From Alicyclobacillus sp. SO9 (GTDB lineage: Bacteria > Bacillota > Bacilli > Alicyclobacillales > Alicyclobacillaceae), in assembly GCF_016406125.1 (NCBI RefSeq), contig NZ_CP066339.1, positions 2,418,001 to 2,482,000 on the forward strand: a stretch of DNA of 64,000 bases. Reading direction: 5' to 3'. This document shows positions 14,568 to 52,202 of this stretch, piece by piece. How positions within the stretch are numbered: position 1 is the stretch's first letter; the number at the start of each line of letters is the position of its first letter. Both the position numbers and the translations under genes were made by a program. The notes under the pieces are model-generated. The model searched no databases and was not told the origin of the DNA. It worked only from the letters and a program-made list of their open reading frames with translations.

Positions 14568-14572
14568 CCTAG
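14530..14572 (+). other. attL: Left prophage attachment site region (attL)
   Basis: CotE similarity ends near codon 27 (about 14550) and the integrase stop codon is at 14569-14571, so the crossover must lie in this short interval. The exact core cannot be fixed without the right end. Serine integrases usually need only a 2-12 bp common core. Confidence 0.6.
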
Positions 14573-15966
14573 ATAAATGTGATTTCAATTTCGTCAGGGG
14601 AATAGACCGTAATTTGCTTTACCAGGAGGGATACAGCCTGTCGGCGCTCTTCGTATGCACTGTTTTCCCACAGTTCTCTGAACCGTGATATTAGGTCCAT
14701 TTCGATTTCGGTGTTGTCTTCTTCGATTTCCTTTTCAAACTCTACGCGCAGCTGCATCTCTCGTTCCTGTAGCACATCAAGCCGTTCACGCATTTCCTCT
14801 GCCTCAATTGCACCGTCCTCGTAAGCATCCTTCCAACGTGTCCGTCGCGCTTCAATTTTCTTGAGTTCAGTGTCAAGCGATTTTTTTGGACGCTTCTTTT
14901 GAGGCGCATCCTTCGGAATGCGTTGTTTCAAATACTCATAACGTTTATCAACAGCATCCAAAAGTGCGGATTCAACGACGCGTTCCTGTATATACGGTAA
15001 GTCACACGTCCGTGAACCAATTCGGTCAATACAAATATAGTATCTTCGAGACCAGTTTCTCGCAGTCTTATTTATGCCTGACATGCTCGCGCCACAGCGA
15101 CCACAGCGAAGCAGCCCGGTGAGTGCATACGTGCCGGTACCAGCACGCGCCGGCAGTCGTTTCCTTTGTTGGCGTAACTGCACAATTTGTTGCCATGTGC
15201 TCTCGTCGACAAGCGGCTCATGGTCTCCTTTTTCCACGATGACGTCATTCTTGCTGCGTTTCCGGTACCCGTACCGCACATATCCGGCATACACTGGATT
15301 ATCGAGCACATAGCGCAGCACGTTCTGCGTCCAGCGTCCGCTTACTGGTGCCACTTGTGGGTTGGTTGGGTCATTGAGCCATAGCAGGATTTTGGACAGG
15401 CCATCCCCTGAGAGGTAGCGGCTAAAGATGTTTTTCACGACCCTTGCAGCTGGCTCATTCAGCACGAGTCGGCCGTCTTCATAACGATACCCAAAAGGCG
15501 CGTTGGCTCCTGGTCGCTTGCCGTCCTGCACCATTTGAGACTGACCCATGCGTGTGCGTTCGGCCAGATTCTCTCGTTCCCACTGTGCAAGGGCGCCTAC
15601 GATTGTGATAAATAGGCGCCCCATGGCGGTGGTGGTATCGAAAACCTCTGTTGCTGACTTGAAGCCAACTCCATATTTCTCGAACTCTTGTATCAAGAGA
15701 TGCAGGTCCACGATATTGCGCGTCAGACGGTCCAGCTTGTAAACGAGGACGACATCAAAGCGCTGTTCGTGCATATGTGTCCTGAGTCTCTGCAGTGCTT
15801 CTCTCTGGGTGTTTTTTGCGCTTTCGCCATCGTCCGTATAGATATCGTATATGTCCCATCCTTGTGACTCACAATACGCGCGTAGTCGACTGAGCTGCGC
15901 ATCAAGGGAAAAACCTTCTTCGGCCTGCATGTCTGTGGATACACGGGTGTAAAGAGCGGCCTTCAT
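14569..15966 (-). CDS. int: Large serine recombinase (prophage integrase)
   Basis: 465 residues. Resolvase catalytic domain at the N-terminus (YTRVSTDMQ with the nucleophile Ser; YKLDRLTRN; GRLFITIVGALAQWERE), followed by the recombinase domain (PFGYRYEDGRLVLNEPAARV), a zinc ribbon (LRCGRCGASMSG with a later CxxxxIGSRTC pair) and a coiled coil (about 370-430) that controls excision versus integration. It reads toward the host junction and ends two bases past the cotE fragment. ATG has AGGTAGGA upstream. Recombinases of this class perform the sporulation-linked excision of sigK and spsM elements. Confidence 0.95.
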   Translation of the reverse strand: MKAALYTRVSTDMQAEEGFSLDAQLSRLRAYCESQGWDIYDIYTDDGESAKNTQREALQRLRTHMHEQRFDVVLVYKLDRLTRNIVDLHLLIQEFEKYGVGFKSATEVFDTTTAMGRLFITIVGALAQWERENLAERTRMGQSQMVQDGKRPGANAPFGYRYEDGRLVLNEPAARVVKNIFSRYLSGDGLSKILLWLNDPTNPQVAPVSGRWTQNVLRYVLDNPVYAGYVRYGYRKRSKNDVIVEKGDHEPLVDESTWQQIVQLRQQRKRLPARAGTGTYALTGLLRCGRCGASMSGINKTARNWSRRYYICIDRIGSRTCDLPYIQERVVESALLDAVDKRYEYLKQRIPKDAPQKKRPKKSLDTELKKIEARRTRWKDAYEDGAIEAEEMRERLDVLQEREMQLRVEFEKEIEEDNTEIEMDLISRFRELWENSAYEERRQAVSLLVKQITVYSPDEIEITFI

Positions 15967-34350: not shown

Positions 34351-34851
34351 ATGGGGAAGAGCAAATATGACTCGCATGTGCTGCCTAAGCTAGACATCAT
34401 TGAGGGATGGAGCCGCAACGGCCTCACCTTGGAGCAAATTGCAAAGAACCTTCACGTATCCAAGGTTAGCCTTATCAAATATCGGAAGGAACATGTTGAA
34501 CTTTTGAACGCCTTAAAAAGTGGGAAGGAAGAGGCGGACGTTCAAGTCCAAAACGCAATTTTCCGGTCCGCTGTCGGCTTTCATGAAAAGGAACAGATTG
34601 CCACGCCAAGCGGGAAGGTTGTTGAAGTGACCCGTTTTCATCCACCCATTCCGACTGCGCAGATATTCTGGATGAAGAATCGCGTGCCGGACAGATGGCG
34701 CGACAAACAGCAGCATGAGCATTCTGGCCCAGACGGCAAGCCGATTGAAGTGAACGTGTCGCACGACCTGTCCAAATTGAGCGACGAGGAGCTGAGTCAG
34801 CTTGAAGGCCTCGTTGTCAAATCTACCGTCACTCCAACAGATACAAGTTGA
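34351..34851 (+). CDS. terS: Terminase small subunit
   Basis: 166 residues, ATG with AGGTGAG upstream. N-terminal HTH (LDIIEGWSRNGLTLEQIAKN, LHVSKVSLIKYRKEH) for pac/cos recognition, central assembly helices (DVQVQNAIFRSAVGFHEKEQ), and a family sequence FWMKNRVPDRWRDKQ before the C-terminus. It overlaps the large subunit gene by 50 bases. Confidence 0.88.
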   Translation: MGKSKYDSHVLPKLDIIEGWSRNGLTLEQIAKNLHVSKVSLIKYRKEHVELLNALKSGKEEADVQVQNAIFRSAVGFHEKEQIATPSGKVVEVTRFHPPIPTAQIFWMKNRVPDRWRDKQQHEHSGPDGKPIEVNVSHDLSKLSDEELSQLEGLVVKSTVTPTDTS

Positions 34852-36280
34852 AAAAGCGCGACGAAGTCTAAAAGAGTTTATCAGGCAGGCGTGGATGGTC
34901 CTCGAACCGTCGACGCCATACGTGCATGGTTGGCATTTGGACGCTATCTCAGAACATCTTGAGGCGGTGTCGCGTGGCGAGATTCGTAATCTGCTGATTA
35001 ACATGCCACCGAGGCACATGAAGTCCATTCAGGTCTCTGTCATGTGGCCAGCGTGGGAGTGGCTCACAAATCCACATATGCGGTGGCTGTATTCGTCGTA
35101 CGCTGCAACGTTGTCCACCCGTGACAGTCTGAAATGCCGGCGCCTGATTGAAAGTCCCTGGTACCAAGAGAACTTTGGTCATATTTATCAACTCACCAGT
35201 GACCAAAACGTCAAGAACCGCTACGAGAATGATAAAAGCGGGTACCGGATTGCAACCTCCGTTGGTGGCGCTGCAACCGGTGAAGGTGGCGACAGGATTG
35301 TTGTCGACGACCCGCACAATGTCATGGACAGCACCAGTCAGACCATGCGCGAAGCCACGCTGCAGTGGTGGGACGAGACAATGTCCAGTCGACTCAATGA
35401 CCCGAAGACAGGCGCAAAGGTCATTGTCATGCAGCGCGTTCATGAGAAAGATTTGTCTGGTCACGTGTTGGATCAAGGCGGCTACGACCATCTGTGTTTG
35501 CCGGCCGAGTACGAAGGCAAGAAGATATTCACCAGCATTGGCTGGTCAGACCCACGCGAACATGAAGGAGACCTGCTTTGGTCTGAGAGATTTGGCCGCG
35601 TTGAAATAGACACCTTGAAGCGCGCGATGGGGAGCTATGCAGCAGCTGGGCAACTGCAGCAGCACCCAAGCCCTGCTGAGGGCGGTGTGCTCAAGCGGCA
35701 CTGGTGGAAGTTCTACACGCAGCTGCCGGAGGAAATTGAAGAACAGATTCAATCCTGGGACCTCACTTTTAAAGAGGCGAAGGACAATGACTACGTCGTC
35801 GGCCAGGTTTGGGGACGCATTGGTGCAGACCGGTACCTTTTGGACCAAACCAGAGACCGCATGAATTTTCCCGAGTCTCTGCAGGCTGTAAGAAATCTAT
35901 CGAGCAAATGGCCCAATACATACACGAAGCTGGTAGAGGACAAAGCAAACGGGCCAGCGCTCATATCGACGCTCAAGAAGGAAATCACGGGTCTCATCCC
36001 CGTTGAACCAATGGGAAGCAAAGAGGCACGTGTGGCAGCTGTCAGCCCTCAAATTGAATCAGGTAACGTCTATCTACCTCACCCAACGATTGCGCCATGG
36101 GTGAACGACTTGATAGAAGAAGCGGCTGCGTTCCCGAAGGGCGCACATGACGACATGGTGGATGCAATGAGCCAGGCGCTCCTGCGATTCAGTCGCGGCG
36201 GTGGCTGGCTTGGGTGGCTTACAGCAGAAAGCGAGGAGGATGAGGATGGACAAGATGATGCACAATCAGATAGGTTTTAA
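34802..36280 (+). CDS. terL: Terminase large subunit
   Basis: 492 residues, TTG start within terS. ATPase: adenine/Walker A variant INMPPRHMKSIQVSV, Walker B RIVVDDPHNV, coupling motif VMQRVHEKDLSG. Nuclease: SWDLTFKEAKDNDYVVG (first Asp), later KLVEDKANG and the acidic GAHDDMVDAMSQAL. It packages DNA into proheads through the portal. Length is usual. Confidence 0.95.
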   Translation: MKASLSNLPSLQQIQVEKARRSLKEFIRQAWMVLEPSTPYVHGWHLDAISEHLEAVSRGEIRNLLINMPPRHMKSIQVSVMWPAWEWLTNPHMRWLYSSYAATLSTRDSLKCRRLIESPWYQENFGHIYQLTSDQNVKNRYENDKSGYRIATSVGGAATGEGGDRIVVDDPHNVMDSTSQTMREATLQWWDETMSSRLNDPKTGAKVIVMQRVHEKDLSGHVLDQGGYDHLCLPAEYEGKKIFTSIGWSDPREHEGDLLWSERFGRVEIDTLKRAMGSYAAAGQLQQHPSPAEGGVLKRHWWKFYTQLPEEIEEQIQSWDLTFKEAKDNDYVVGQVWGRIGADRYLLDQTRDRMNFPESLQAVRNLSSKWPNTYTKLVEDKANGPALISTLKKEITGLIPVEPMGSKEARVAAVSPQIESGNVYLPHPTIAPWVNDLIEEAAAFPKGAHDDMVDAMSQALLRFSRGGGWLGWLTAESEEDEDGQDDAQSDRF

Positions 36281-38734: not shown

Positions 38735-41700
38735 ATGACCGTTGAAATCATGAAGGCATCCAGACAGGGCGCTATCGCGTCCACAACCAGTCTTGCGGCG
38801 CAGGCACGCATGGCCGCAACGAAGCCAGCTGCACCCGTGAAGGTGCCCGAGACTGTTGAAATCGCAATGACTGAACAGGGTATGATTGCAGGTGGCAACT
38901 TTAGCCCTGGTGCGCCAATCTCACCCTACAACGAAGTCGGCACGCCCCCAGTCATTACACCATTCCAAGTTGGTCAGAACATCTTCGCAGTCCCTCGCCA
39001 GATGACTGGTGTTGGGTTCGACACACTGAAAAACATCACGAGCAAGTGGGACGTGGCCCGGCTGTGTATTGAGGTACGCCAGGACGAACTACGTAATCTG
39101 GACTGGGACATTGTCGTCGATGAAGATGAAGTGGATAACGCGGACTTGTACAAAGAGGAGATAAAGCAAGCCAAGAAATTCTTCATGCATCCGGCACAGG
39201 GGTACGACACCGACGACCTGGTCATGATGAGCTCTGATGACTGGCTTCGGTATGATGCACTAGCCATGTACAGACACCGGACACGTAACGGCAAACTGGG
39301 TGAACTGGAAGTCATAGATGGCACCAGCATCTCACCACTGATCGATGGACGTGGTGGCATTCCGCGTGGAGATGCACCAGCCTATGCACAATGGGCATGG
39401 GGATTGCCCTGGACGTGGCTACGACAGCGCGACATTATCTACAAGCCGCATCACCCGCAACCATCCACGCGGTACGGATTACCACCGGCTGAGTGGGTGC
39501 TACTCACGGCGAACACAGATGTGCGTTTGCAGTGGTATTTCTTAACCTACTTTACGGAAGGCGGCGTACCAGAAGCCTTCGTTAATGCGCCACCTGATGT
39601 GCAGGACCCTAAACAGGTGAAGGCGCTCCAAGATGCATACGACGCTACGATTAGCGGTACCCGCGGTGCGCACCACAAGGTCAAATGGATTCCACCTGGT
39701 GCAAAGGCGGAGTTAGTCAATAAGGCCAACTTTGATGTGGATTTCGCGGGCTTCATGCTCGCCAAGGGGTGTGCTTCATATAAAGTGCAGCCGGCGCAGA
39801 TTGGCTTTACTGAGAAAGTCAACAAGAGTTCTGGCGATACCCAGCGCGACATTACAGACCTTCGTTCCATCATTCCCAGTACAAAATACTATCAATCGAT
39901 ATTCAATCAAATCCTGCGCGAAGACTTCAATATGCCTTATGCGCGGTTCAAATACTTGAATGTTGAAGAGGAAGAAGACCAGCTCAAGTTAGCTCAAACG
40001 CGGCAAATTTACATCCAGACCGGCGTGTATTCTCCCGACGAAGTACGCTTGAAGCTGGGGGAAGAAGTAGACTCCAAACATCCAGTGGGGCGCGCATTGT
40101 ACACACGCACTGGCGTTGTGTTCCTGGACGATGGGACGGCTGGCGGCGTGCAGCCGGATGAAGAGGACGACGAACTGGAACCTGCCGATGGCGTGACGGT
40201 AGACTCTGAATTGATGCCAAAGCCTCACAGTCAGGCCAAGCCTGCGGAGGCCACTAAGAAAGCCCTACAAAACGAACTGCGCAAGTGGCGCAATGCCGCG
40301 GTGAAGCGAGCCAAGGACGGCAAGCAGCAGAAGGTGTGGGAGCCTGTCGCGCTTGATGGCATGTTAGCCAAGGCGCTCAACACGCAGTTGCAGTCGGTTG
40401 ACCATCCGGATGAGGTGCGGAGATTGTTCGACCCGCTGATAGGTGGTGATGCACCTGTAAATTTTTCGAAACGAGCAACCAACGTTCGGCGTGGTAAAGG
40501 CCGTATGGTTGCTCGAGACAACAAACGGCTGCGTGAGCAACAACAGAACCTTAAGGTGCAAATTGAGATTCTCTTACACCGGGAAGGTCCACCGCTGGCG
40601 CAGCATGTTTCAGACGGTCTGCAGACTCAGCCTCAAGCTATCAATGGTACCACGGTTGAGCTGACGGTATTGGACGCGATTCTCGCCAATTATGGATGGC
40701 AGGGATGGGAGAAGCATCTTAAAGAGACCGTTACAGATGCGGCGAAGGCGATATACACGCAAGGCGCTGAAGAAGCCATGAAGCATGTGGATGTGCAGCC
40801 TTCTTTCGACCTCATCAATCCCGTGGCCGTTGAATACGCCGAGAAGCGTGGCGCGGAACTGGTCGGGAAGACGAGGCTCGGTGATTTCTACATCGACAAC
40901 CCGAATCCCGAATTCAGCATTCCTCACGCTACCCGCGACATGATTCGCCGGCATGTTGTCTCTGCCATCAAGAAAGGCGAGTCGATTGATGAACTGAAGA
41001 AGGGGATTCAGGAGCACTACGCCTTCAGTGATGCCAGAGCCGAGACCATCGCTCGAACCGAAACAGGATTTGCATACAACCACGGAACTGTGGGAGGCAG
41101 CGGTCTTGCGGATGTCCAGCACGTTGAGGTCTTTGATGGAGACTATGACCCACCTTGTGCGGATGCGAATGGCTCTATTTGGACCCTGGCCTATGCCGAT
41201 GCACATGTGCTGCAACATCCAAATTGTCTAGTCCCAGGGACGAGAGTGGTCGCACACAATGTGGAGGCCACGTTTGCGCGAAGGTATAAGGGTGACGTGG
41301 TTGTCCTGCGCACAGCCAGCGATTACGAGGTCACCGTTACTCCGAATCACCCGATATTGACGAATCGCGGATGGCTGACTGCTGGCGAGTTGAGCGAAGG
41401 AGACTATGTAATCCGCGACGTCAGTACCGACTGGACCAGTTGTGGTTCTAACCACGATGAAATGCCACCCGTTATCGAGGAGGTAGCGGAATCGTTCGGT
41501 CTCACGTTTGATGTCGTGCCAACTACCGCCGAAGACTTCCACGGCGACGGAGCCGACGGCGAGGTCTGCATTATACGGACCGATGGCCTTTTGTCTGACC
41601 GGGCTCAATCCACGCTCAACAAGAAGGTTGCGCAGTCGGTCTTCGTTGACTCCGATATTCTTGCTCGTGTATTCCGGGTCGAGTGCAATTTGTTCGAGTC

Positions 41701-42277
41701 CGATGGCGTGCTTGATTCGCCATTCAAGCGTCTTCTTTCTGCCACGAATCGAGTCATGGGCCGAGGCGGTAATGTCGTCACGAAAAGAGTCCGGACGCTG
41801 TTTGTAGGTATTGCGAAGCGACTCGGGCTGAGAGCGCATGTCGACGCCCATGTCTCTGAGCCATCTCCTGACTTGAGCAGCGTGCAGCCCATAGCGGCGA
41901 GCGATTTCATCAGAAGACAGCAAATCAGCGACATACAACTCGCGGAGTTTGTCGTCGGACGGTTTGGAAGCCGGAGTCTTTCTGCCGGGGCGTCTGAGTT
42001 CACAGCCACTTCTCTTGAGGATTCTCAAAACGGTAGATTTCCCGACTCCATATTTGGTGGCGAGCTCGGGGGTGCTCTGTCCGCTCATATAATCCCGGAC
42101 CAAGTCGTCAGTGTCAAAAGAGAATTCTATTCTGGGCACGTGTATAACCTCCAGACCACTCAGGGATGGTATGTTGCTAACTCTATTATAACACATAACT
42201 GTGTGCGGGCTTTCGCGCCAATTCCGCCTGATGAAGATGAGCAGTATGTAAAGCCACCAAACCTTGAAGGGAGTTGA
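38735..42277 (+). CDS. Portal-MuF fusion protein interrupted by an intein
   Basis: 1180-residue precursor. Residues about 60-500 are a portal protein (IEVRQDELRNLDWDIVVDED, LLTANTDVRLQWYFLTYFTE, MLAKGCASYKVQPAQIGFT). Residues about 520-680 are a basic linker. From about 730 comes a MuF/minor head domain (RDMIRRHVVSAIKKGESIDE, IARTETGFAYNHG, VFDGDYDPPCADANG, HVLQHPN). The intein occupies residues 831-1155, inserted just before the Cys of the MuF HPNC motif. Splicing would leave an 855-residue protein. The ring forms the DNA portal and initiates head assembly. ATG with GGAGG upstream. Confidence 0.9.
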   Translation: MTVEIMKASRQGAIASTTSLAAQARMAATKPAAPVKVPETVEIAMTEQGMIAGGNFSPGAPISPYNEVGTPPVITPFQVGQNIFAVPRQMTGVGFDTLKNITSKWDVARLCIEVRQDELRNLDWDIVVDEDEVDNADLYKEEIKQAKKFFMHPAQGYDTDDLVMMSSDDWLRYDALAMYRHRTRNGKLGELEVIDGTSISPLIDGRGGIPRGDAPAYAQWAWGLPWTWLRQRDIIYKPHHPQPSTRYGLPPAEWVLLTANTDVRLQWYFLTYFTEGGVPEAFVNAPPDVQDPKQVKALQDAYDATISGTRGAHHKVKWIPPGAKAELVNKANFDVDFAGFMLAKGCASYKVQPAQIGFTEKVNKSSGDTQRDITDLRSIIPSTKYYQSIFNQILREDFNMPYARFKYLNVEEEEDQLKLAQTRQIYIQTGVYSPDEVRLKLGEEVDSKHPVGRALYTRTGVVFLDDGTAGGVQPDEEDDELEPADGVTVDSELMPKPHSQAKPAEATKKALQNELRKWRNAAVKRAKDGKQQKVWEPVALDGMLAKALNTQLQSVDHPDEVRRLFDPLIGGDAPVNFSKRATNVRRGKGRMVARDNKRLREQQQNLKVQIEILLHREGPPLAQHVSDGLQTQPQAINGTTVELTVLDAILANYGWQGWEKHLKETVTDAAKAIYTQGAEEAMKHVDVQPSFDLINPVAVEYAEKRGAELVGKTRLGDFYIDNPNPEFSIPHATRDMIRRHVVSAIKKGESIDELKKGIQEHYAFSDARAETIARTETGFAYNHGTVGGSGLADVQHVEVFDGDYDPPCADANGSIWTLAYADAHVLQHPNCLVPGTRVVAHNVEATFARRYKGDVVVLRTASDYEVTVTPNHPILTNRGWLTAGELSEGDYVIRDVSTDWTSCGSNHDEMPPVIEEVAESFGLTFDVVPTTAEDFHGDGADGEVCIIRTDGLLSDRAQSTLNKKVAQSVFVDSDILARVFRVECNLFESDGVLDSPFKRLLSATNRVMGRGGNVVTKRVRTLFVGIAKRLGLRAHVDAHVSEPSPDLSSVQPIAASDFIRRQQISDIQLAEFVVGRFGSRSLSAGASEFTATSLEDSQNGRFPDSIFGGELGGALSAHIIPDQVVSVKREFYSGHVYNLQTTQGWYVANSIITHNCVRAFAPIPPDEDEQYVKPPNLEGS
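41228..42139 (-). CDS. Homing endonuclease encoded antisense inside the intein
   Basis: 303 residues from GTG 42139, with GGAGG 8 bases upstream and an extended -10 promoter at 42185-42193. Two HTH units (residues about 12-45: LVRDYMSGQSTPELATKYGV; about 65-100: LRELYVADLLSSDEIARRYG) precede a Vsr/DUF559-like nuclease core: GPYNADLAVGSVAVEVFGG (Asp192, Glu201), SWHDIKRETERFRYL (Trp-His-Asp), DNGWHFIVVRTT. The TAG stop lies immediately inside the intein's Cys1 codon. The gene fills the intein exactly. Sequence features look like a real protein; expression is unproven. Confidence 0.82.
   Translation of the reverse strand: MPRIEFSFDTDDLVRDYMSGQSTPELATKYGVGKSTVLRILKRSGCELRRPGRKTPASKPSDDKLRELYVADLLSSDEIARRYGLHAAQVRRWLRDMGVDMRSQPESLRNTYKQRPDSFRDDITASAHDSIRGRKKTLEWRIKHAIGLEQIALDPEYTSKNIGVNEDRLRNLLVERGLSPVRQKAIGPYNADLAVGSVAVEVFGGSWHDIKRETERFRYLLDNGWHFIVVRTTTGPVGTDVADYIVSFAQLASSQPSAIRQYRVIRSNGDLVIAGCAQDNHVTLIPSRKRGLHIVCDHSRPWD
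42185..42193 (-). promoter_or_regulatory. Extended -10 promoter of the antisense endonuclease
   Basis: On the minus strand TGTTATAAT is a perfect extended -10 (TGnTATAAT). It lies within the intein's last codons (Ile-Ile as ATT ATA), 33-38 bases before the GGAGG site. No good -35, which an extended -10 does not need. Confidence 0.6.
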
Positions 42278-42281
42278 TGTA

Positions 42282-44339
42282 ATGCCAAAAGACAAGATTC
42301 ATTTACTCGCGCCCATCGCGAAGGTGGAAACTACACCTGATGGCGGTCGTGAAATCTGGGGATTCGCTACTCTCGAGCGAAAGGACAAGGCAGATGAAAT
42401 TGCCGACTTCGAGGGGACCGTAAAAGCCTTTCAGACGTGGTCCGACGAGATTTCAAAGCGCACTGGCGGCAAAAGTATGGGCAACGTGCGCGTCATGCAT
42501 CAGCCCATCCCTGCTGGTAAGATGACGCACTGGGAACCCGGCGAGACTACCATTCAGGACGAAGACGGGAACGAAAAGGTGGTCAAAGGAATTTGGACAG
42601 CCACCTATGTGCCGCCTCATAAGACAGACGTCATTAAGGATGTTGATGAAGGCATCCTAAACGCCCTCTCCATCGGAGGTAACTACGAAAAGCGCTGGTG
42701 GGACGAGACCGAGAAAGGATTTCGTTACATCCCGGAACTGGCCGAATACAGTCTCGTAGACAATCCAGCGGTACCAGGTGCGGACTTTGCCAATGTCATC
42801 GCAAAGGCGCACGGCCCATGGGAACATGACCGGAGGAACTTGGCTAAGAGGGACGACAAAGAGGACGAAAAGCTTCACACCGAAGCCGAAGAGCGCGCAA
42901 AGAAGTATGGTATTTCGTTTAAAAAAGATGGACATCTGACTCCACCTGAAGGCTACCCGACAGAACTGAGTGAATATGGCGACCCTACTAACTATCGGTA
43001 TCCTATCGATGAAAAACATATTCGTGCCGCAGTCGGGTACTTTAATCATCCTGACATGCGCGAAAAAGGCGACTACTCCGAGTCCGAATGGGAAGTCATC
43101 GGAAAACGGATTGCCGCGGCAGCTAACAAGCTTATTGGAGAGGGTCATGAGTTCAAGGACGGCAAAATTGATACGTCTGAGGAACGAAAAGAAGCTGACA
43201 AGGCGGCATGGGGCGACCTTCAAAAACGGGCTGGTACCAGCGGTGAATTAAGTCACAGTGACATCCGTAATTTGCTTCAGTCCGCGGTCACGCTTGGCAA
43301 TCCGTTTGGAGGCGACTTGTGGGTCTGTGATGTCTATGACGACTACTGCATTGTGGAAGATTGGATGGAGAACAAGAACTGGAAGGTGCCATACACCATC
43401 AAGGACGGTAAGGCTGAACTTGGCCAAGCAGAACAAGTGGTGCAGACATGGCAACCCGCTCCGAAGGAGGCTACGAAAGTGAACCCGACACATCTTCAAA
43501 AGACAGTTCCACCGACCGACAAGGAAGTAGACGCTCGTATCAAGGAACTCGAAGCTGCACTGGATGCAGTCCGTGCTGCCCAAAACAAAGACCAGAAAGC
43601 GGAAGGGGACGACCCCAACGACCAAGCTGTATCAGAAAAGCTGGAGGCGGCACAGAAAATTCTCGACGAACTGAAAGCTGCCCAGGAGAAGGACAACAAA
43701 GCCGCCAGTGAGATGTGGAACGAAGACCACAAGAAGGCTGCAGAAGCGCTGGAAGTGCTAAAGGCCATCACCGGGCGCCTGGAGAAGCGTGGTGCAGCCG
43801 TATCGGCAGCCAGACGGAGTCACTTGAGTAAAGCTATTGACCACATCCATATGGCTCTCGGTGACGAGGACAAGGTGGAAGACAAGGCGCACATGGGACT
43901 TGAGCCCGACGACCACGCTGAGAAGGTCGCGTCCATCATCCTTGAAAAGTTGGGTGGTCTCGATAATCTACAGAAATCTGCACCCGTTGATGTTGGAGGT
44001 GCGCTGGCCCAAGCGCTGGAGAACGCTGGGTTGGCAAAAGCTGAGGAAGTCTCTACCGTGACTGAGCAGCTGACCAAAGCAGTGGAGCAGATTGCGACAC
44101 TGGAGGGTCTGGTGAAGGAAATCGGAGAACAACCGCAGCCAGGCGGTCCATTCATGGGCGCCTATCCTGGCCTTGGTGGACAGATGCCATGGAACGGGGA
44201 GGTCGAAAAGGCCGCACTCCAAAACGTATTGAACACTACCGAAGATGCAGCTGTGAAAGATGCAGTCGGAAGACACCTGGCGACAGACATGTTGGCGCAG
44301 CAATTCGCGGCCGCAAGTGGTCGCAAGCCGACTCCTTAA
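42282..44339 (+). CDS. Prohead protease-scaffold protein
   Basis: 685 residues from ATG 42282 with AAGGGAG upstream. N-terminal protease-like domain (about 1-185: EIWGFATLERKDKADEIADF, MGNVRVMHQPIPAGKM, SIGGNYEKRW, AEYSLVDNPAVPGADF), a DUF6582-like module (YPIDEKHIRAAVGYFNHPDM), another small domain near 340-385, then a long charged coiled coil (about 410-560) and an Ala/Glu-rich end as in scaffold parts. It should guide and then mature the capsid shell. Confidence 0.8.
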   Translation: MPKDKIHLLAPIAKVETTPDGGREIWGFATLERKDKADEIADFEGTVKAFQTWSDEISKRTGGKSMGNVRVMHQPIPAGKMTHWEPGETTIQDEDGNEKVVKGIWTATYVPPHKTDVIKDVDEGILNALSIGGNYEKRWWDETEKGFRYIPELAEYSLVDNPAVPGADFANVIAKAHGPWEHDRRNLAKRDDKEDEKLHTEAEERAKKYGISFKKDGHLTPPEGYPTELSEYGDPTNYRYPIDEKHIRAAVGYFNHPDMREKGDYSESEWEVIGKRIAAAANKLIGEGHEFKDGKIDTSEERKEADKAAWGDLQKRAGTSGELSHSDIRNLLQSAVTLGNPFGGDLWVCDVYDDYCIVEDWMENKNWKVPYTIKDGKAELGQAEQVVQTWQPAPKEATKVNPTHLQKTVPPTDKEVDARIKELEAALDAVRAAQNKDQKAEGDDPNDQAVSEKLEAAQKILDELKAAQEKDNKAASEMWNEDHKKAAEALEVLKAITGRLEKRGAAVSAARRSHLSKAIDHIHMALGDEDKVEDKAHMGLEPDDHAEKVASIILEKLGGLDNLQKSAPVDVGGALAQALENAGLAKAEEVSTVTEQLTKAVEQIATLEGLVKEIGEQPQPGGPFMGAYPGLGGQMPWNGEVEKAALQNVLNTTEDAAVKDAVGRHLATDMLAQQFAAASGRKPTP

Positions 44340-49577: not shown

Positions 49578-49744
49578 GAGGGCGATCTGTTTATGGAGAC
49601 CTGCTTCCGTACCAGGAGTCACTGGTCTGTAAACGTTGGGGATGCACACCTTTGGAACTATCAAAGGTGCCCTTTTCGCGTGTCATGTTAGAAATCGAAT
49701 TTATCAATGAAGAAAATCGCGCCGAGCAGGCGAGGGGGAATTAG
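49167..49744 (+). CDS. Tail assembly chaperone, -1 frameshift product (gpGT-like)
   Basis: CCCAAAC at 49544-49550 is positioned as C CCA AAC in frame, a canonical X XXY YYZ slip site. After a -1 shift the new frame runs 64 codons to TAG at 49742-49744: LIQRVGQYLRGRSVYGDLLP, YQESLVCKRWGCTPLELSKV, PFSRVMLEIEFINEENRAEQ. The product is about 192 residues. The extension ends just before the tape measure start. Confidence 0.82.
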
Positions 49745-49745
49745 A

Positions 49746-52202
49746 ATGTCTAGTGAGTCGGAATTGAGAATCCTCATCACTGCAGTGGCCGATAAGGCAA
49801 AGGCGGCGTTTCAAGGGGTGGTGGACGGTGTCCAAAGGATGGCAAGCCACATGCGTACCGGCGCTGACCAATCCAAGTTAGCGATGGACAAAGTTGAGAG
49901 TGCCGTAGCTGGAGTAAACAGACAAGTCGATGAGCTTATCGCAAAACAGCCGACCAAAACGATTGACCTCCATACTGCTGAGGCACGAGCGCGCTTGGAC
50001 GAAATCAGAGCAGATCTCGATACTATGCAAAATAGTGTCTTGGATGTGTGGGTAAATGACGGACCAGCATTCGAGGCGCTCTACAAGCTAGATGCCCAGT
50101 TCGAGACCCTCAAAGAGCAGGCCGTGAAAATTAACTTGGAGGACAAGGGCGCGCTGGCCAAGTTGGATCAATTCCAAGCAAAAGAATTGGAGCTCCGGAC
50201 TATTCTCAACAAGATTCCGCTGGACGTGTTGGACGAGAAAGGAATCCTCCAAGTCGAGCGCCTCAAAGTAGCGATTGATACCTTGCACGACAAGATCGTT
50301 ACGATTGGTGTTGTTGAGAAACCGGCAGCCGCAACATCTCCGGCCGCAGGCGCTGCAAAAGCCGCAGGCGGCGGGCGGCGCATGGGTGCCTTGGCCGCTG
50401 TCGGTCTGAGCGCATTGCCCATGGTTGCACCTGTAGCAGCAGCTGCCACAAATGCAGTCATGGGCCTTGCATCGGCCTTTACCTCCGCGTCTGCTGGCGT
50501 GGCCGGGTTTGGCGCCGTGGCTATCTCCGACTTGAAGTCAGTCTTCACGGCCAGTTCCGCACTCAACAAGGCTCAAGCGGCATATGCCACAGCTACGACG
50601 AGCGCTCAGAAGGCGACTGCATTGCGCCAAGAGAAACAGGCGCTGTACGGCTTGGATGCGGCCCAAGTGGCAGCAGTTCGGACTCTTCAGACTTTCGAGG
50701 AGAAGTGGCAAGATTTCGCCCGGTCGTTTCAAAAGCCAGTATTCAAGGTCTTTGGGTTGGCTCTCAAGGGGATAGAAACTCTGATGACGGACATGAAGCC
50801 TGTCATCACCGCATCTGCCAACGCGTTTATAACGCTTGGAACGCAGATGGACAAGGCGCTCGGCTCGTCGGATAATAAGCAATTCTTCAACTGGCTGGCG
50901 TCCACAGCAGGACCTGCAATCCTCGCGTTTGGACACGCAACGGGGAATGTATTTCGAGGGATTGCCAATCTCATGATGGCCTTTGGAGGCAGTGCAAAGA
51001 GCATGGAGACTGGCCTTGTTGGCATGACGGCAGATTTCTACAAATGGACAGATAGCCTGAGCAAGACAAAAGGATTCAAGGAATTTCTGTCCTATGCGGC
51101 ATCGAGTGGAAAGGCAGTACTCACACTCATTGGGCAACTTGCTCAGCTCGTCGTGCACTTAATCACCTATCTGGCACCTCTTGGACTTGAGCTGCTCAAG
51201 GTAGTAGGCGACTTAGGTAAATGGATCAATCAGCTGCTGACTACCAATCCTATCATTCGAATTCTGATTCACGTTGTGATAACCGCAGTGAAGAACCTGT
51301 TGATATTCGTAGACACTGTTATCAAGGTGATGATGTGGCTCGGCAAGACGCATCCGGTCATTATGGATATCATCGCAGCGGTTGGCCTTGCGACCGCCGC
51401 ATTCTTTGCCTTCAATGCGGTCATGGATGCTAATCCAGTAGCACTCGTCATCATTGGAATTGCTGCGTTGGTAGCAGCCGTCGTGGAATTGGTGCGACAT
51501 TGGCACCAAGTCATTGCGTGGCTCGGGCGCGTCTGGAACTCCTTCCGACACTTAGGACTTGGCGTACAATTTGCACTCGCAATGTTGAACCCTTTCATCG
51601 GTATTCCAGCCTTGATCATTGCGCATTGGCGGCAAATCAGTAACTTCTTCGGCACGATAGTGCGGGATGTTGAAAGTGGCTTTATGTGGCTCGTCAATGG
51701 CGCCTACACTTGGGGCTCAAATTTTATCAACATGTTCAAAAATGGTATTTTGGCCGGCGTGCATGCAGTCACAAGTGCCGTTTCCCGTGTAGCCCGTGCG
51801 GTAAAGAGTTTCTTGGGATTCGGATCTCCGACCGAAGCTGGCCCTGGCGCAACATCGGACCAGTGGGCACCCAACTTCATCAACATGTATGTAGCGGGGT
51901 TGCAAAAAGGCATCCCGCGGGTTCAAGATGCGCTGCGTCGTGTGCTGGAACCGGGCGCACAAGCTGCGATGGACACTGGATATCAGGGCAACAGCCCCGC
52001 TCACCTCGGCACAGAAGTTGCCGCTCAACTGACGCATGAAACCGGCGCTGGCGTCCAAAACGGAGGACAAATCGTGCTAAATATGACGAACCATATTCAC
52101 GGGGCGCACAACTTCAACGACCCGCACGTGATTGAGTCTCTGTCTCAGCAGATTGCTATCTACACGCAGCAGAAGCTCCATGCAATGGGAGGCACGCTCT
52201 AA
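49746..52202 (+). CDS. Tail tape measure protein
   Basis: 818 residues from ATG 49746 with AGGGGGA upstream. N-terminal coiled coil (about 1-200), Ala-rich hydrophobic segments (about 215-270), further helical parts with membrane-like stretches (IMDIIAAVGLATAAFFAFNA, VALVIIGIAALVAAVVELV), and a C-terminal region FGSPTEAGPGATSDQWAPNF typical of tape measures. It sets tail length, about 120 nm at 1.5 angstrom per residue. Stop overlaps the next ATG. Confidence 0.93.
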   Translation: MSSESELRILITAVADKAKAAFQGVVDGVQRMASHMRTGADQSKLAMDKVESAVAGVNRQVDELIAKQPTKTIDLHTAEARARLDEIRADLDTMQNSVLDVWVNDGPAFEALYKLDAQFETLKEQAVKINLEDKGALAKLDQFQAKELELRTILNKIPLDVLDEKGILQVERLKVAIDTLHDKIVTIGVVEKPAAATSPAAGAAKAAGGGRRMGALAAVGLSALPMVAPVAAAATNAVMGLASAFTSASAGVAGFGAVAISDLKSVFTASSALNKAQAAYATATTSAQKATALRQEKQALYGLDAAQVAAVRTLQTFEEKWQDFARSFQKPVFKVFGLALKGIETLMTDMKPVITASANAFITLGTQMDKALGSSDNKQFFNWLASTAGPAILAFGHATGNVFRGIANLMMAFGGSAKSMETGLVGMTADFYKWTDSLSKTKGFKEFLSYAASSGKAVLTLIGQLAQLVVHLITYLAPLGLELLKVVGDLGKWINQLLTTNPIIRILIHVVITAVKNLLIFVDTVIKVMMWLGKTHPVIMDIIAAVGLATAAFFAFNAVMDANPVALVIIGIAALVAAVVELVRHWHQVIAWLGRVWNSFRHLGLGVQFALAMLNPFIGIPALIIAHWRQISNFFGTIVRDVESGFMWLVNGAYTWGSNFINMFKNGILAGVHAVTSAVSRVARAVKSFLGFGSPTEAGPGATSDQWAPNFINMYVAGLQKGIPRVQDALRRVLEPGAQAAMDTGYQGNSPAHLGTEVAAQLTHETGAGVQNGGQIVLNMTNHIHGAHNFNDPHVIESLSQQIAIYTQQKLHAMGGTL

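Follow-up and report, generated by a model that had tools for sequence, protein, structure and literature searches.

We analyzed a phage head gene in Alicyclobacillus sp. SO9 that contains a predicted intein, and a second, putative homing-endonuclease gene that lies on the opposite strand of that intein. The window, a stretch of 64,000 nucleotides (contig NZ_CP066339.1, positions 2,418,001 to 2,482,000; coordinates below are positions within it), is a prophage region of a 5.29-Mb genome, with integrase, terminase, tape measure and tail genes present. The open reading frame (ORF) at 38735-42277 matched Phage_portal (5.5e-14), Phage_Mu_F (1.5e-8) and Intein_splicing (2.4e-12) in Pfam, as well as portal/head families in PHROG. 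In this prophage the portal and MuF domains form a single fused ORF. The following features lie at the locus:

38735..42277, forward strand: host gene, a portal plus MuF-like head morphogenesis ORF of 1180 amino acids (aa) with the intein inside (Pfam, PHROG)
41225..42199, forward strand: intein, 325 aa, between ...LQHPN and CVRAF... (Pfam Intein_splicing, E 2.4e-12; TIGR01445 intein_Nterm)
41225..41419, forward strand: N-terminal splicing region, blocks A to B, codons 1-65, with the nuclease C-terminus opposite; both strands constrained
41339..41353, forward strand: block B motif TPNHP, with H42 invariant in 63/63 aligned inteins
42137..42151, forward strand: block F motif HVYNL; the nuclease start lies opposite its His codon, and the Shine-Dalgarno (SD) sequence opposite its Leu/Asn codons
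42188..42202, forward strand: block G ITHN plus the +1 Cys; the putative promoter -10 is antisense to this block G stretch and the preceding Ile codon
41228..42139, reverse strand: antisense homing-endonuclease-like gene, 303 aa, GTG start at 42139, TAG stop at 41230-41228
42011..42112, reverse strand: first helix-turn-helix (HTH) unit, nuclease residues 10-43 (Pfam, predicted helices)
41852..41956, reverse strand: second HTH unit, residues 62-96 (Pfam, predicted helices)
41315..41662, reverse strand: Vsr/I-Bth0305I-type nuclease core, residues 160-275 (structural alignment, invariant residues)
41564-41566 and 41537-41539, reverse strand: nuclease acidic residues D192 and E201
41537..41551, both strands: sense FHGDG overlapping the antisense catalytic strand (x-V-A-V-E201), nuclease residues 197-201
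42148..42152, reverse strand: SD sequence GGAGG, 8 nt 5' of the GTG start
42185..42193, reverse strand: extended -10 promoter-like element TGTTATAAT

An earlier note on this DNA had described a sense-strand HINT intein with every splicing residue in place, and all of them were found at 41225-42199: Cys1 (TGT), block B TPNHP, the C-terminal HN and a +1 Cys (TGT). Modeling of the intein gave a HINT fold (Z 12.8, 1.8 A over 106 residues to the splicing domain of the Mtu RecA intein, 2in0) with a predicted local distance difference test (pLDDT) score of 89-98 at the model ends, including residues 1-70. Between these confident splicing halves, residues 91-280 scored 36-65 and were predicted to be mostly disordered. 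Judged from its sequence, the element belongs with the class 1 HINT inteins, by its splicing residues, its fold and its in-frame insertion absent from homologues. No Pfam endonuclease was found in the sense frame, which sets the element apart from canonical endonuclease-containing inteins.

The longest antisense reading spans 41228-42295 (355 aa, TTG start), and the GTG at 42139, 8 nt after GGAGG, is the likely start, giving the 303-aa form. Its TAG stop (41230-41228) faces intein codon 2, directly past the Cys1 codon. The two frames are in exact codon register, such that every antisense codon is the reverse complement of one sense codon. When the sense protein was held fixed and codons were drawn from host gene usage, 7.6 antisense stops were expected (P(none) = 2.5e-4). 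In the window the gene is confined to the intein, as had been proposed, with a -10-like element in block G, the start in block F and the stop after Cys1; promoter-like element, SD sequence, start, ORF and (usually) stop all lie within the intein boundaries.

The antisense protein matched HTH_23 (7e-9), HTH_28 (4e-8) and, below Pfam's own cut-off, the restriction-type nuclease family MTES_1575 (2.3e-4); at E 1e-3, MTES_1575 was matched by 29 of 64 homologues and DUF559 by 5 of 64. A profile built from six homologues and compared with the PDB matched I-Bth0305I (3r3p) at 1.9e-6. The AlphaFold2 model of the nuclease (53 rows) had a pLDDT of 89.8 and a predicted template modeling score of 0.66, and its residues 160-275 aligned to both E. 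coli Vsr (1cw0; Z 10.1) and I-Bth0305I (3r3p; Z 10.1, 2.1 A over 91). Across a 64-row alignment Y189, N190, D192 and E201 are invariant, while E166 is kept in 95% and W207/H208 in 86-87%. Together, these matches bear out the proposed 303-residue protein with two HTH units and a Vsr/DUF559-like core, and the modeled core has the Vsr-like catalytic fold of the EDxHD / I-Bth0305I-like family. Phage Snoke (L002) has a shorter nuclease, of 250 aa, in which one of the window's two HTH units is matched; the DNA-binding portion apparently varies in steps of entire units, both in Snoke and in related Guernseyvirinae loci.

We then examined how widely this arrangement occurs. By tblastn, nuclease matches were found in 125 of 50,697 phage records; in 25 of 40 listed tblastn rows the match lay under a gene annotated as head, MuF, minor capsid or structural, in 14 under a 'hypothetical protein' and in 1 in an unannotated record. 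Matches 5' of the likely start (query residues 1-52 of the 355-aa form) are probably shadow similarity. A profile scan of IMG/VR viral contigs yielded 445 relatives among 478 candidates, and the best 80 of the 445 were analyzed. Our 104-locus set comprised the window, 22 annotated phage records and 81 IMG/VR loci, near-duplicates included, from phages of Salmonella, E. coli, Pseudomonas, Vibrio, Gordonia and Klebsiella and from metagenomes; halovirus HCTV-5 (L124) was left out of it, and synonymous choice was tested on distinct sequences (94, 92, or a smaller number where given). The nuclease was antisense to the intein in the same codon register in every locus (104/104), with no in-register sense stop over the nuclease match, and the antisense frame and the opposing sense frame were both open. 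An earlier set of 86 loci had likewise placed the nuclease antisense inside the intein in 86/86. A search from the intein side gave the same picture, with an antisense nuclease in 80/80 viral loci (the best 80 of 557 by likeness to the window intein; 60 contigs new, 20 already in the first set); an apparent sense stop in one of these (L142) is the end of the MuF gene. All four phage records matched by the Snoke intein (APunk, Sedona, Sejanus and PvVp04_M) also carry the antisense nuclease. Among the loci examined (best 80 of 445; best 80 of 557), no full-length free-standing or sense-oriented nuclease relative was found. In HCTV-5, a free-standing gene annotated as an HNH endonuclease (1962-2705) comes directly after a gpF-like gene and gives an HTH-only match.

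Genome contigs gave a sparser result. A full-length nuclease was found only in the window's own copy (1/398 at E 1e-15), and a genome profile scan matched 21 of 101 genomes, the other 20 only over part of the profile. Single-sequence scans found no close relatives of the window nuclease in viral contigs or genome contigs, and the profile was needed. The element described in the earlier note is real, and it is widespread in phages and not peculiar to one genome.

The intein is conserved along with the nuclease. Its N-block was found in 104/104 loci and its C-block in 102/104, the contig ending at that point in the other two (L015, L071). The C-block ended in N followed by Cys, Ser or Thr in 101 of 102 loci and the +1 residue was Cys in 101/101; the C-terminal N was part of the search rule and the +1 Cys was not. 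In the alignment in which block B H42 is invariant (63/63), the invariance of C1 and N325 is partly due to rows having been chosen by these residues. Cys1 was located by script in 98/104 loci (not in L011, L026, L027, L040, L048 and L071). Intein codon 2 was a TTA or CTA Leu codon in 49 of these 98, and the nuclease stop often lies just there; in 9 of the 98 the nuclease ORF continues past Cys1 into the extein. One intein (L058) ends in ARSVAQSME instead of HN/C, possibly a decayed intein or a sequencing problem.

Selection was assayed separately on the two strands. The nuclease codons TTA, CTA and TCA are stops in the intein frame, and in 94 distinct sequences 426.6 of them were expected from host-gene codon usage and 0 were seen; this also held for nuclease genes of 34-48% guanine-cytosine (GC) content. 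The window alone had 0 against 8.3 expected, and a second estimate gave 437.8 expected against 0 in 24,701 codons. For substitutions, 35 disjoint pairs were taken out of 818 candidate pairs. Nuclease codon position 3 was more variable than position 1 in 35/35 pairs (totals at positions 1/2/3 of 2749/1880/3747), and the flanking gene followed a normal sense-strand pattern (2333/2005/3513). We also divided the intein into zones (34 pairs; one pair dropped for lack of a mapped Cys1). The middle zone followed the nuclease pattern in 34/34 pairs, with amino acid identity of 63% for the nuclease vs 47% for the sense product. Within the first 65 intein codons, position 3 was freer in 10 pairs and position 1 in 21, with 3 ties, and identity was 71% for the sense product vs 67% for the nuclease. 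These zone results indicate that both strands are under constraint in the N-terminal splicing region and that constraint in the middle falls mainly on the nuclease.

A second site of overlap lies at FHGDG, where protein-level conservation is seen for this sense motif as well as for the antisense catalytic strand, in the window and at equivalent positions in alignments A2 and A3. Nuclease residue 197 may be Ser, Pro, Thr or Ala while the opposite sense Gly is kept in 55/64, and residue 198 may be Val or Ile while the opposite sense Asp is kept in 63/64. The commonest third base reaches 0.94-1.0 at the FHGDG overlap vs ~0.35-0.8 in other conserved middle nuclease columns with codon choice. These sequence comparisons show clear dual-strand selection in the first ~65 intein codons, at FHGDG and at block F/G. 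The codon-rate comparison proposed in the earlier note thus revealed constraint on both strands and not on the sense strand alone. With homologues of the antisense protein found and its frame open in the 104 loci, none of the outcomes that the note had named as refuting occurred. That note also had two proteins sharing about 300 codons; both frames are open over that length, but strong dual selection does not extend over all of it. The sense middle (about residues 91-285) is likely, from the model, a mostly disordered linker with little role beyond staying open.

Candidate expression signals for the nuclease coincide with splicing motifs. In 82 of 94 distinct sequences the nuclease starts at the same position, antisense codon 20 counted from the intein end. 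An SD sequence was present at 63 of these 82 fixed starts vs 58 of 866 in-frame start codons elsewhere, deep inside the gene. The block F His was encoded by CAT, which gives ATG on the other strand, in 31 of 39 sequences with a usage estimate (14.7 expected; 71/81 overall), and the block F Leu by CTC, which gives the SD sequence, in 68 of 89 (20.8 expected). By synonymous resampling, an extended -10 score of at least 6 in block G was reached by 48/92 sequences vs 9.5 expected, and a score of at least 5 by 75/92 vs 30.9 expected. The Ile at -4 was ATA in 44/65 (8.0 expected over the 59 whose codon usage could be estimated). Since the biases at start, SD and -10 are synonymous choices, the intein protein does not account for them.

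To examine mobility, the MuF exteins of Snoke were joined and matched to phage records (1209 records matched; 60 sampled at even steps). The match was one piece across the junction, an empty site, in 56/60, two pieces ~1.4 kb apart, an occupied site, in 3/60, and two adjoining pieces in 1/60. The window's own joined MuF exteins matched no phage record; a related genome (L211) has the empty site, reading LQHPR-CVRSFAPIPPDED with no gap, and its intein-free homologue aligned over 641 columns of the window's joined exteins. The inteins of Snoke (E. coli) and SGPC (Salmonella) share 95.6% identity, against 66.3% and 79.5% for their flanks; between SaI_NFG_5577 and L223 the intein is 89.1% identical and the flanks 62.8% and 73.7%. 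Among 11 phage pairs, which were chosen by hand and are not independent, the intein was more alike than both flanks in 8. Over 60 loci, nuclease similarity correlated better with that of the splicing domain (Spearman 0.43) than with that of the flanking gene (0.20), and these correlations were reached by 0 and 1 of 500 permutations, respectively. Empty sites and the greater likeness of inteins than of their flanks support mobility, as far as sequences can.

Our preferred reading, to which we give a probability of roughly 0.88, is that the phage portal/MuF head gene harbors a mobile intein, and that the homing endonuclease of this intein is encoded in full by a gene of its own on the other strand. 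We consider it likely, with somewhat less assurance, that it represents a widespread, old class of phage inteins, in which a self-sufficient antisense homing-endonuclease gene lies in codon register, splicing motifs double as expression signals, and homing is uncoupled from late head-protein expression and splicing. The sequences and their comparison establish the architecture, its conservation, selection on both strands, the embedded signals and the pattern of presence and absence; we infer promoter use, nuclease activity, target, homing and splicing in the following cycle. Bacterial RNA polymerase would transcribe the nuclease from the block-G promoter, independent of the head operon. An extended -10 would make a -35, which would fall in the host gene, unnecessary, so that the unit would carry its own expression signals and homing could become possible once host RNA polymerase encounters the DNA. 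The nuclease would then cut intein-free MuF genes at the HPN/C site, repair would copy the intein together with its antisense gene, and protein splicing would restore the head protein.

Several observations weigh against this reading. The SD expression missed 19 of the 82 fixed starts, 12 of 94 sequences have no start there, and 73/94 have a further in-frame start one codon inside the intein end (3 with an SD sequence). The block F Asn codon AAC is weakly biased (51/63 vs 43.3 expected), and the putative promoter was scored by its extended -10. A PDB search with the single nuclease sequence gave no match and the best Foldseek E value to 3r3p was 5e-3, so that the nuclease assignment depends on the profile and the structural alignment; in the profile search, designed helical-repeat proteins, aligned to the HTH half, rank above 3r3p. 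The intein was less similar than both flanks in 2 of the 11 pairs (Vivi2 with Fosterous and with Angelicage) and one pair was mixed (SGPC/L223). Double coding would itself slow intein change, so identity differences alone are no proof of transfer. Finally, 16 of 82 flanking N-extein stretches of relatives (at least 150 codons) are also stop-free in the antisense register, which makes openness in one genome weak evidence and conservation across relatives decisive.

Among the alternatives, the one that survives best, though we hold it to be improbable, is that both genes are real and the nuclease has been domesticated or has another role, such as regulation or exclusion of other phages, instead of homing. 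The register and the acidic residues are stably kept in the aligned sequences, while a purely selfish cycle should leave some decayed copies; with loci ranked by similarity, such copies may have escaped notice. Against domestication stand the frequent emptiness of the MuF gene in Snoke relatives, the inteins of some E. coli and Salmonella phages that are far more alike than their flanks, and a nuclease similarity that follows the splicing domain over the flanking gene. Still less probable, in our view, is that only the nuclease works, within a passive in-frame insertion that does not splice. The disordered sense middle, less conserved than the nuclease, would fit such an insertion, and ShiLan offers a published precedent (PMC11855218), but splicing motifs in nearly all loci, the invariant block B His, the HINT fold, a sense frame that is the more conserved in the first 65 codons and intein-free MuF homologues with the same joined sequence all argue for splicing. 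There is only the slightest chance that the antisense ORF is a shadow, open and 'conserved' merely through a conserved sense intein and GC-rich DNA: codon-for-codon register is where shadow similarity is strongest, and the matches 5' of the likely start and the stop-free flanking stretches fit it, but it is opposed by the HTH and nuclease family matches, the confident I-Bth0305I/Vsr-like fold, a nuclease more conserved than the sense product, the 0 of ~427 expected stops at even 34-48% GC, and an SD sequence, start and promoter kept through synonymous choice, and the codon-position and synonymous-choice results refute it.

The mobile intein with an antisense nuclease gene shares features with several known systems. 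Like canonical endonuclease-bearing inteins (Mtu RecA/PI-MtuI type), it has a HINT domain, the same residues, a conserved insertion site and an endonuclease between blocks B and F. In the canonical inteins the endonuclease is within the same polypeptide, whereas here it has an antisense gene of its own, which extends over block A/B as well. The catalytic fold is that of I-Bth0305I / EDxHD enzymes (3r3p), in which DNA-binding units are likewise tethered to the nuclease (PMC3943268). I-Bth0305I is listed there among group I intron endonucleases and its PDB title is 'Mobile intron protein', whereas the gene described here lies antisense within an intein and encodes two HTH units in the window's version and one in Snoke's. 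The out-of-frame HNH gene of ShiLan phage methylases is also an endonuclease hidden in another frame of a stop-free phage-gene insertion; that gene is on the same strand, is HNH, and has no splicing domain and no detectable ribosome-binding site (PMC11855218). Here, in contrast, the gene is on the opposite strand, Vsr-like and in a true intein, with a ribosome-binding site and a promoter-like element. Antisense endonuclease genes in group I introns of nuclear ribosomal DNA also lie opposite a self-splicing host; there the gene is inserted in a peripheral segment of the RNA (P9.2), where no open protein frame has to be kept (PMC9548176), whereas here the opposite strand must be translated through.

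In the parts seen, phage papers mention the intein alone for Snoke (PMC6776784), the UPWr_S phages (PMC8425127) and vKMB36 (PMC11162368), and the UPWr_S paper also names a homing endonuclease, gp63, which is a separate gene (PMC8425127). An antisense endonuclease within an intein was not found in the literature searched, which did not cover bioRxiv, and novelty is provisional. A 2025 preprint by Gosselin (bioRxiv 2025.01.02.630785) is said to be an intein survey of PhagesDB actinobacteriophages with 'Non-Canonical Architecture' in its title; it may overlap with our findings and is the main risk to novelty.

If our reading is correct, this would be a new mobile-intein design, with a separate antisense gene whose expression signals are woven into splicing motifs instead of a fused domain. 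It would also be a natural, repeatedly sampled case of two unrelated folds on two strands of the same DNA, and its hundreds of homologues would make theories of overlapping-gene evolution directly testable. The class could further serve as a source of Vsr/I-Bth0305I-type nucleases with targets guessable from the insertion site.

Inteins with a putative antisense endonuclease gene are a widespread, seldom annotated architecture. When the annotated region was viewed in 29 phage records, the match was antisense to the intein host gene in 28. The antisense ORF is annotated in one of these 28 (Salmonella phage PK2), under the label hypothetical protein, and a nuclease is named in none (0/28); annotation and intein surveys of the sense frame only would thus miss the gene. 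One of the 28 (L116) has no annotation whatsoever, and the vB_StyS-sam record annotates a shorter ORF in another frame. The host gene label varies beyond MuF, as in Mycobacterium phage Sejanus (L208), where the antisense nuclease (E 6.7e-54) lies within a 'capsid maturation protease' gene. The prophage landmarks elsewhere in the window are:

14569-15966, reverse strand: integrase
34802-36280: large terminase
49707-52202: tape measure protein

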